From Candidatus Ferrigenium bremense (GTDB lineage: Bacteria; Pseudomonadota; Gammaproteobacteria; Burkholderiales; Gallionellaceae): a DNA stretch of 64,000 nucleotides. Every line of letters begins with the position of its first letter. Positions within the stretch are counted from its first letter, which is position 1. Shown here one piece after another: positions 17,589 through 20,684 of the stretch. Made by a program: the position numbers and the translations under genes. Where the stretch lies: NCBI GenBank assembly GCA_019449635.1, contig JAGRPI010000023.1:62001-126000 (forward strand), in the 5' to 3' direction. The notes under the pieces were generated by a model. It worked only from the letters and a program-made list of their open reading frames with translations, did no database searches and was not told the DNA's origin.

Positions 17589-18628
17589 AGGGCTTGCTCC
17601 TTCATGTACGGCAGCGTGATCTCGACGCGATAAAAGTCCGCGCCGCTTTCGACCTTGTAGCGCGCCTCGACGTCGAACAGCAATGCCAGCCGTTCGCGGA
17701 TATTCTGCAACGCCATCTTGTTGCCGGTATGCGGTGCGGCGCCGCCCGGCGCGCAGGGATTCTCCACCCTGAGCTGCAATTCATCACCACTGCGGCGCAG
17801 CGCGACGCTGATACTGCCGCCTTGCGGCAACCGCTCGATGCCGTGATATACGGCGTTCTCCAGCAACGGCTGCAACAGCAGCGGCGGAATCAGCGCGTCG
17901 TCCGGCACATCCCGGACTTGCCAATCCACGCGCAACCGTTCGCCCATGCGCAATCGCTCCAGAGCGATATATTGCTTGCTCAGCCCGATCTCCTGGCGCA
18001 GCGGCACGAGATCTTGCGCGTCCGACATCGCCATGCGGAACAGGTCGGACATATCCTCCAGCGCGGTCTCGGCCTGCTTGGGCTGGGTGCGCACGATGCC
18101 GAGGACGGCATTGATGCTGTTGAACAGGAAATGCGGCCGGATGCGCGCGCGCAACGCCTGCAGACGCGCATCGTATATAGCGCGCGACAGCACCTGGCTG
18201 CGCCAGCGGAAATATATCAGCAGGATGCCGCTTACCAGCACGCCAAGCAGCGTATAGCGCACCGCATCAAACCACGCGTCATCGCGACCCGGCGGGCGAT
18301 ACAGCTCTCCGCCGAAATAATAGATAACCAGTGTCACTGCCGCTGCCAGCGCGTTCACCATCAGCACGCCGCGCCAATAGGCAATCCGGTTCAGCCACGG
18401 CTGCGCCGCCCACAGCAGCAGCAGGCAGGTCAGCAGGATCGGCGTGAGCAGCGTGGTGATCTGCATCATGCGCAGCGGCACCTCCGCCCAGCTGTCCGCC
18501 TGCAACAATGTCTGCAGCAATGCCAGGCCGTTGCTGATCAGCAGGATGCGCAACGTCACACCGAGGTTGCGGAAGTTGGGCAACGCGTCGGGCAGGGCAT
18601 TTTGTTTTATACTGCGCGCTTCATTCAT
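17585..18628 (-). CDS. algZ: LytS/AlgZ-type sensor histidine kinase
   Basis: A 347-residue membrane histidine kinase of the His_kinase (LytS/YehU) family. Four hydrophobic segments fill roughly residues 22-145. The kinase part follows, with the phosphoacceptor His in [16 protein letters not shown] near residue 168 and the ATP-binding [14 protein letters not shown] (N box) near residue 242, then RVENP and an atypical, shortened G region. There is no periplasmic sensor domain, so the signal is probably sensed within or near the membrane. It forms an operon with algR by a four-base overlap and is divergent from argH, whose start lies about 40 bases away. Confidence 0.85.
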
Positions 18629-18671
18629 GGCGGGAAATCTTACCGTTTTTCAGGGACAAGCGGGGGCTGCG

Positions 18672-20075
18672 ATGCAAGATCCAACACAAAATAAAAATAA
18701 CGATACCTGGTCGGGGCGATTCACGGAGCCGGTGGCGGAACTGGTGAAACGCTACACCGCATCGGTGGACTTCGACCACAAGCTGGCCATGTTCGACATT
18801 CAGGGCTCGCGGGCGCATGCGCAGATGCTGGCCGCTTGCGGCATCATTACCGCAAAGGACCTGGACGACATCCAGCGCGGCCTCGCGCAGATCGAAAACG
18901 AGATCATTGGCGGCGAATTCGTCTGGTCGCTGGACCTGGAAGACGTGCACCTCAATATCGAGAAGCGCCTCACCATGCTGGTCGGCGATGCCGGCAAACG
19001 GCTGCACACCGGGCGTTCGCGCAACGACCAGGTGGCGACCGACGTGCGCCTGTATCTGCGCAGTGCGATCGACGACCTGCTGCATCTGATCAAGGCGTTG
19101 CAGACCGCGCTGCTCGACCTCGCCCAGCACCACACCCGCACCATCATGCCCGGCTTCACCCACTTGCAGGTGGCGCAGCCGGTCAGTTTTGCGCATCATC
19201 TGATGGCGTATTTCGAGATGCTCAAGCGCGATGCGGAACGCCTGCACGATGCGCGCCGCCGCGTGAACCGGCTGCCGCTCGGCGCGGCGGCGCTGGCGGG
19301 CACCAGCTATCCGATCAGGCGCGAAATGGTGGCGGAACTGCTGGGCTTTGACGGCGTATGCGAGAACTCGCTGGATGCGGTTTCGGACCGCGACTTCGCC
19401 ATCGAATTCACCGCCTGCGCCGCGCTGGTCATGACGCATCTGTCGCGCTTCTCCGAGGAACTGATCCTGTGGATGAGCCCGCGCTTCGGCTTCATCGACC
19501 TGGCCGACCGCTTCTGCACCGGCTCCTCCATCATGCCGCAGAAGAAGAACCCCGACGTGCCGGAGCTGGTGCGCGGCAAGACCGGGCGCGTCAACGGCCA
19601 TCTGGTCGCGCTGCTCACGCTGATGAAAGGCCAGCCGCTGGCCTACAACAAGGACAACCAGGAAGACAAGGAACCGCTGTTCGACACCGTGGAAACGCTG
19701 ACGCAAACCCTGCGCATCTACGCCGACATGATCGGCGGCATCAAGGTCAAGCCGGAAGCCATGCGCAGCGCGGCGTTGCAGGGCTATGCCACGGCCACCG
19801 ACCTGGCCGATTACCTGGTGAAAAAGGGCCTGCCGTTCCGCGATGCCCATGAAGCCGTGGCGCTGGCGGTGCGCTTTGCCGAGCAGCGCGGCTGCGACCT
19901 GGGCGACATCGGTCTCGCAGAGTTGCAGCAATTCTCCGCGCTCATCGATCAGGACGTGTACCAGGTGCTGTCGCTGGAAGGTTCGCTCGCCAGCCGCAAC
20001 CACGTCGGCGGCACCGCGCCGCGGCAAGTGGAGGCAGCCATTGCGCGGGCGCGGGTCCATCTCGCAAAATCATAG
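18672..20075 (+). CDS. argH: argininosuccinate lyase
   Basis: A 467-residue enzyme of the fumarase/aspartase superfamily that splits argininosuccinate into arginine and fumarate. Signatures include [42 protein letters not shown] and the [20 protein letters not shown] loop. Full length. The ATG at 18672 (MQDPTQNKN) is preferred to in-frame ATGs further upstream, which overlap the divergent kinase gene. The stop is followed within three bases by a hairpin that is a terminator only in the minus direction. Confidence 0.96.
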
Positions 20076-20077
20076 GC

Positions 20078-20105
20078 AAAAAAATGGGTGGTCTGGCGAC
20101 CACCC
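20078..20105 (-). terminator. intrinsic terminator of the small RNA candidate
   Basis: On the minus strand GGGTGGTC, loop GCCA, GACCACCC, then A and seven T. The 8-bp GC-rich stem and T-run are a strong rho-independent terminator for minus-strand transcription. On the plus strand no T-run follows, so it is not a good argH terminator. Confidence 0.8.
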
Positions 20106-20187
20106 AAAGAGGAGGAGAGTATGAAAAGTAGAGTTGTTGCCAACTACTAACCCAGACACTCGGTGCGGACTATAGCCATACTCTCCA
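20078..20187 (-). ncRNA. candidate small RNA with anti-SD linker
   Basis: Read on the minus strand, the segment starts GGAGAGTATG (20186-20177), which pairs perfectly over 10 bp with CATACTCTCC (20123-20114). Inside that loop AGTTG-GCAA-CAACT forms a small hairpin with a GNRA tetraloop. A CU-rich linker (CTCTCCTCCTCTTT) complementary to Shine-Dalgarno sequences follows, and then a terminator hairpin with seven T residues. A TATATG box (20199-20194) lies just upstream. No gene occupies the strand. The architecture suggests a trans-acting regulator of about 110 nt. The plus-strand alternative is a 9-codon ORF at 20121-20150. Confidence 0.5.
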
Positions 20188-20193
20188 AGAATG

Positions 20194-20224
20194 CATATAT
20201 GCCGAAATGCCTATATATTTCGGC
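20194..20224 (-). promoter_or_regulatory. dyad operator and -10-like box before the small RNA
   Basis: GCCGAAAT (20201-20208) and ATTTCGGC (20217-20224) are perfect 8-bp arms with an 8-bp spacer. A minus-strand TATATG at 20199-20194 lies seven bases before the presumed start at about 20187. No good -35 hexamer is visible, so the dyad could be an activator site or, alternatively, a hairpin. The rest of the gap to grxD (20225-20366) shows only a weak hairpin at 20333-20365. Confidence 0.4.
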
Positions 20225-20366
20225 CTAGTCATTTCGGGTAACCATTGCAACCAATTCTTTTTAAACACCTTTAGCTTTACCCTGTACGGGATGCGTTGTC
20301 ACATAAGACGAGTCTCGCAACACCTCGGAACCAAGGGATTGCCGCACCAGGCAGGATTCCCTTGAA

Positions 20367-20684
20367 TCAGGGATTTTCCAGCAATTGCTTGAGTTCCCCG
20401 CTCTGGTACATCTCGGTCATGATGTCCGATCCGCCGACGAATTCGCCCCTGATGTAAAGCTGCGGAATGGTAGGCCAATTGGCGTAGTCCTTGATCCCCT
20501 GGCGGATTTCCGCATCTTGCAGCACATCCACGGTGAACAGTTCTTTCACGCCCAGCGTCTTCAGGATGCCCACCGCTTTGCCGGAGAAACCGCATTGCGG
20601 AAACTGCGGACTGCCTTTCATGTACAGCACCACCGGGTGTGTGGTGACTTGCTCGTGGATGCGTTGCTGGATGTCTGTGCTCAT
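20367..20684 (-). CDS. grxD: monothiol glutaredoxin (Grx4 type)
   Basis: A 105-residue CGFS glutaredoxin that carries or delivers 2Fe-2S clusters with glutathione and BolA-like partners in the cytosol. The active site PQCGFSGKAV is near residue 30. The cis-Pro region WPTIPQLYIRGEFVGGSDI near residue 70 and the glutathione-binding Lys in VVLYMKGSP near residue 22 are present. Full length for the family. It stands alone between the porin and the small RNA region. The transcript probably starts in the 130-base gap to the porin terminator. Confidence 0.95.
   Translation of the reverse strand: MSTDIQQRIHEQVTTHPVVLYMKGSPQFPQCGFSGKAVGILKTLGVKELFTVDVLQDAEIRQGIKDYANWPTIPQLYIRGEFVGGSDIMTEMYQSGELKQLLENP

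Follow-up and report, generated by a model that had tools for sequence, protein, structure and literature searches.

RNAs of the RF02278 type (Betaproteobacteria toxic small RNA; ncS03/05/27/62, bdhR1) slow growth when overexpressed. The Burkholderia double-hairpin RNAs are thought to mask ribosome-binding sites (PMC5688073), and the same mode of action has been tested for Bordetella S17 (PMC11722255) and for rhizobial NfeR1 (PMC10746234). No studies of small RNAs from Gallionellaceae were found in the literature searched. Here we analyzed a window of 64,000 nucleotides (the whole stretch of DNA under study) from Candidatus Ferrigenium bremense, in which an earlier note had proposed a minus-strand small RNA with an anti-Shine-Dalgarno (anti-SD) linker beside argH.

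The minus-strand locus beside argH

The inner GNRA hairpin, the linker, the terminator with its seven T and the upstream dyad that the earlier note had described were all found in the sequence, with the linker CTCTCCTCCTCTTT on the minus strand of the locus and the dyad halves GCCGAAAT/ATTTCGGC upstream of the RNA (Table 1). The proposed layout also held in the orthologues, which keep promoter, fold, UCCUCCU and terminator in the minus-strand order dyad, fixed 22-nt gap, -10 box, P1, P2, unpaired UCCUCCU, terminator and U7. The perfect 10-bp stem, formed by GGAGAGTATG (20186-20177) and CATACTCTCC (20123-20114) on the minus strand, is present as claimed, but its 5′ arm (20177-20186) lies upstream of the -10 box, should therefore fall outside the transcript and is lost in many relatives, so that the stem appears largely fortuitous; the conserved closing stem in its place is GAGUGU/AUACUC. 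With a transcript start probably near 20161, the length of about 110 nt first suggested is reduced to about 84 nt.

Table 1. Positions of the elements of the locus and of its neighbours in the window.
Feature	Position	Strand	Basis
argH frame (argininosuccinate lyase), convergent neighbour	18444..20075	+	ORF; C-terminal 250 aa beside the small RNA in most species
U7 terminator tail	20078..20084	-	direct reading; kept in orthologues
Candidate small RNA, ~84 nt, putative start at conserved GAGUG ~7 nt after the -10 box	20078..20161	-	55-orthologue alignment, covariation, fold
P3 terminator hairpin, 8 pairs, GC-rich	20086..20105	-	96.1% of cells paired; 4 pairs with two-sided changes; terminator scan
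Exposed anti-SD stretch UCCUCCU	20110..20116	-	near-invariant in 55 orthologues; unpaired in consensus and MFE folds
P2 hairpin AGUUG-GCAA-CAACU, GNRA loop 20137-20140	20132..20145	-	two-sided changes in 3 of 5 pairs; GNRA in 20 of 23 Gallionella-genus sequences
P1 closing stem, 5′ strand GAGUGU, partner AUACUC 20117-20122	20156..20161	-	pairing in 89.7% of cells; A-U replaced by G-U
-10 box TATAGT	20169..20174	-	gap of exactly 22 nt from the dyad; TATAGT/TACAAT/TAGAAT in 55 of 55 orthologues
Operator-like dyad TAGGCCGAAATATATAGGCATTTCGGCATAT, presumed activator binding site	20197..20227	-	orthologue conservation; other genomic copies also 22 nt from -10-like hexamers
grxD-like monothiol glutaredoxin, upstream same-strand neighbour	20367..20684	-	ORF; 54-288 nt upstream of the small RNA in many species

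Folding of the minus strand between 20187 and 20078 gives -44.7 kcal/mol (z = -5.3 relative to dinucleotide shuffles, with 0 of 200 as good), and the revised 84-nt transcript from 20161 has a fold z of -5.1, its MFE fold displaying P1, P2, the exposed UCCUCCU and P3. For P1, P2 and P3 in 55 orthologues from many genera, 93.3% of the cells were paired compared to 39-48% with the partners slid by 1-3 columns, two-sided changes occurred in 48 cells (nine pairs affected) compared to 12 in shuffles, and the covariation score was reached by no shuffle, with the reservation that the sequences are related and these counts are thus not independent. Since the two strands fold about equally well, folding alone cannot pick the strand. 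Four signs, to be read as counts and not as probabilities, agree on the minus strand and support it as the functional one: the T-run comes after the terminator hairpin on this strand; the -10 box and the operator also precede the RNA on it; in the minus-strand reading the P2 loop is GNRA in 20 of 23 Gallionella-genus sequences, through six different tetraloops, compared to 0 in the plus-strand reading (in other genera the loop is not GNRA); and G-U cells exceed A-C cells by 77 to 19, as expected for a minus-strand RNA.

Two remarks concern the neighbours. The upstream frame is named grxD on the strength of our reading of its sequence, and the listed argH frame opens at an upstream GTG, so that the true argH start probably lies further in. 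No clear terminator of argH itself was seen on the plus strand between 20078 and 20123; read-through from argH would carry the complement of the small RNA and might thus serve as a natural sponge.

Distribution in the Gallionellaceae and the shared operator

A DNA search of 101 genomes placed the element in about twenty congeners. The conserved structure to be sought next to argH in relatives was recovered with a covariance model built from 23 sequences, which matched 107 of the 158 genomes, and 12 of the 15 genera, of a single family, with fixed synteny; the matches that bear names identify this family as Gallionellaceae. About one third of the family genomes gave no match under strict filters, some of these genomes being incomplete. 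Across the order (399 genomes), every match below E = 7e-4 belonged to Gallionellaceae. Scanning 84,980 species genomes for the pattern returned 51 stretches, nearly all of them with Gallionellaceae-type labels (Gallionellaceae, Gallionellales, Sideroxydans, Gallionella, Ferrigenium, Sideroxyarcus) or from MAGs labelled broadly as Nitrosomonadales, Betaproteobacteria, Gammaproteobacteria or Proteobacteria; three, from Elusimicrobia, Flavobacteriaceae and Acetatifactor, look like chance. This distribution would by itself place the window in a Gallionella-like member of the Gallionellaceae. The RNA is convergent to argH, usually less than 50 nt from its end, in a position that is nearly always the same across the family. 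It lies downstream of grxD on the same strand in many species, and members of genus g54 keep argH with no grxD detected in the flank examined. Judged from these comparisons, the locus is a minus-strand small RNA gene beside argH that is specific to the Gallionellaceae lineage.

The RNA part occurs as a single strong copy in this genome. Elsewhere, related copies away from argH carry the same dyad-type operator upstream (L158, L159, L160, L164), and one genome, G009, holds four matches in all.

The dyad had been placed at a regulatory position, and this is upheld by its fixed 22-nt spacing to the -10 box and by its conservation, which across all 55 orthologues reaches 1.07 bits per position compared to 0.13 immediately upstream and 0.49 within the spacer. 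Similar dyads occur at roughly a dozen loci in this genome; of 19 oriented sites, 7 have TAnnnT at offset 22, and no other offset has more than 2. Among the products of the genes that follow them are a CZB protein, two hemerythrins, two HDOD proteins, an HlyD adaptor, an ABC exporter, a PsiF-repeat protein and a DUF1924 protein. In other genera the dyad core is TATaTAGGCCnTTtGGCATATAtG. The copies 22 nt before -10-like hexamers upstream of these HDOD, hemerythrin, CZB, HlyD, ABC exporter, PsiF and DUF1924 genes lie near position 1501 of L002, L005-L008, L010 and L015-L017 (in L007, 1501-1538). Its repeated occurrence ahead of other genes, with the spacing unchanged, makes the dyad look like the binding site of a regulon, one so far undescribed. 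The small RNA has this operator in common with HDOD, hemerythrin, CZB and secretion genes and would therefore likely belong to the regulon of the dyad-binding factor, as the shared sites suggest; the common operator points to an activator and its regulon.

Predicted action on ribosome-binding sites and alternative readings

We consider it likely that the locus as a whole is explained by an independent, dyad-activated minus-strand small RNA of about 84 nt whose exposed UCCUCCU blocks Shine-Dalgarno (SD) sites. In this model, a regulator bound to the dyad, upstream of the -35 region, would activate a sigma-70-type promoter with the -10 box TATAGT, as its position and conservation suggest. The small RNA, transcribed independently from the minus strand, would fold into P1, P2 and P3 and leave UCCUCCU single-stranded between P1 and P3, an arrangement consistent with both covariation and folding. 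Aided by Hfq, which is encoded in the genome (E = 2.1e-29), UCCUCCU would then pair with strong SD sites of several mRNAs and block their translation. The RNA thereby probably masks ribosome-binding sites and lowers the expression of other genes.

Duplex energies, set against a yardstick of -16.8 kcal/mol (the 1% tail of random window segments), were -22.0 kcal/mol for the start of adenylate kinase, -21.6 kcal/mol for a universal-stress-like protein and -21.2 kcal/mol for an NnrS-like protein, starts that had been picked for their complementarity and whose names are taken from our reading of the sequence. Pairing of the RNA with some gene starts is therefore possible. A strong SD followed by ATG exists at six places in this genome including the small RNA gene, and the adenylate-kinase-like one is the only convincing gene start among them. 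The complement of the full linker has no genomic match with up to 2 mismatches besides the small RNA gene itself, and no target common to ten relatives was obvious among the matches listed. A role as CsrA sponge was dropped, there being no GGA in the 84-nt RNA.

A real minus-strand RNA might instead use UCCUCCU for another purpose, binding a protein or another RNA, and we grant this reading a small but appreciable chance: no target has been established, and conservation of UCCUCCU is by itself no proof of SD pairing. Against it, the exposed anti-SD stretches of related betaproteobacterial and rhizobial small RNAs act on ribosome-binding sites (PMC11722255, PMC10746234), and the energies with some starts, albeit starts chosen for complementarity, are favourable. 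It seems improbable that the element is just the 3′ end of grxD, either its terminator or an RNA cut from its 3′ UTR with no promoter of its own. Such an origin would fit the location of grxD, which precedes the RNA on that strand, often by 54-120 nt; however, the conserved operator and -10 box stand between grxD and the RNA, genus g54 keeps RNA and operator where grxD was not detected in the flank examined, and a plain grxD terminator would need neither P1 and P2 nor UCCUCCU.

On the plus strand, AGGAGGAGAGTATGA could be taken to provide both a ribosome-binding site and the start codon for a very short ORF (MKSRVVANY) behind argH, and in the window and its close relatives a strong SD does lie 5 nt before the ATG of a 9-codon frame. 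The earlier note had raised the case that only this mini-ORF would prove conserved, and the opposite was found: its ATG is absent in many orthologues and its length and frame vary elsewhere, whereas the RNA pairs and the other minus-strand elements are kept. Moreover, the promoter scan of the plus strand found none, and the GNRA loops and the G-U asymmetry favour the minus strand, leaving a functional mini-ORF very unlikely. The many occurrences of the dyad in this genome and in related ones might also suggest a dispersed repeat (REP or mobile element) with the small RNA look as a by-product, a reading that we find scarcely credible given the single offset at which TAnnnT accumulates, the synteny fixed across the family and the one strong copy of the RNA part in this genome; the dyad as a REP element was rejected on its fixed spacing to the -10 box.

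Related RNAs and comparison with known systems

In a second class of anti-SD small RNA-like loci (L129, L133, L162, L168, L169, L172, L173, L174 and L274-L293, at ~1000-1170 or 1501-1612), a sigma-54 promoter (TGGCAY-N5-TTGCT) precedes an RNA of ~75-110 nt that has a linker of the CTCCTCCT type and a terminator with a GGGC hairpin. A model for this class, R2, matched 38 genomes, from at least 10 families, among the 399 examined across the order; by the same model the class is absent from this genome, and it has no Rfam match at threshold. One copy (L286) follows an amtB-looking gene, and one locus holds two tandem copies (L161 1052-1330; G040:C1:592524-592830). We tentatively entertain, as somewhat less than an even chance, that in Gallionellaceae, where the genomes tested yielded no RF02278/S17 RNA above threshold, the argH-linked family is the main anti-SD regulator, placed on a lineage-specific operator regulon (HDOD, hemerythrin, secretion), and that some members of the family and of the order additionally use the second, sigma-54-driven set of similar 3′ layout.

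The candidate RNA beside argH was compared with described families. At the gathering threshold, the Rfam scan of the window returned only a tRNA, and relaxing the threshold at the locus yielded nothing beyond sub-threshold matches at chance level. Scored with the RF02278 covariance model, the RNA obtained 11.6 bits (E = 6.2), below the gathering score of 50 bits; this genome contained no RF02278 match, and in the 25 genomes of its genus no match exceeded the cut-off. Like the RF02278 RNAs and Bordetella S17S, the argH-linked RNA is short and betaproteobacterial, with a hairpin and an intrinsic terminator (PMC5688073, PMC11722255), and like RF02278 it has an unpaired CU-rich stretch complementary to ribosome-binding sites. 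RF02278 members (L234-L239), however, begin with TGTCTCCTCCACCCTCCTCC-TTTGGTGGATT and have two CU-rich sites, the second in a hairpin loop, whereas the RNA described here has a single one, between P1 and the terminator and behind the GNRA hairpin. By its score the RNA is not a member of RF02278, and its layout differs as well.

The rhizobial αr14/r15 RNAs (NfeR1, SmelA075, SmelA099) also expose an unpaired anti-SD and base-pair at translation starts (PMC10746234, PMC3927594), but they come from another class of bacteria and have CCUCCUCCC in the loops of three or four hairpins, in contrast to the one UCCUCCU in a linker found here. The Neisseria NmsR siblings, compared by their description (PMC5688073), are likewise betaproteobacterial with unpaired CU-rich stretches complementary to the RBS; they are tandem twins with two such stretches, unlike the one strong copy in this genome.

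For the iron-oxidising Gallionellaceae, these results add a defined family-wide small RNA with its promoter, operator, fold and seed, and, the seed being a plain anti-SD, how such an RNA chooses its targets becomes testable. Several characteristics of trans-encoded anti-SD RNAs were found here on sequence grounds: a predicted promoter of its own and an intrinsic terminator, both on the strand that has no gene, a conserved structure with an exposed anti-SD, and Hfq encoded in the genome. Our verdict is that the RNA represents a new, lineage-specific family of the known anti-SD kind, predicted to act like RF02278 and S17 without being a member.
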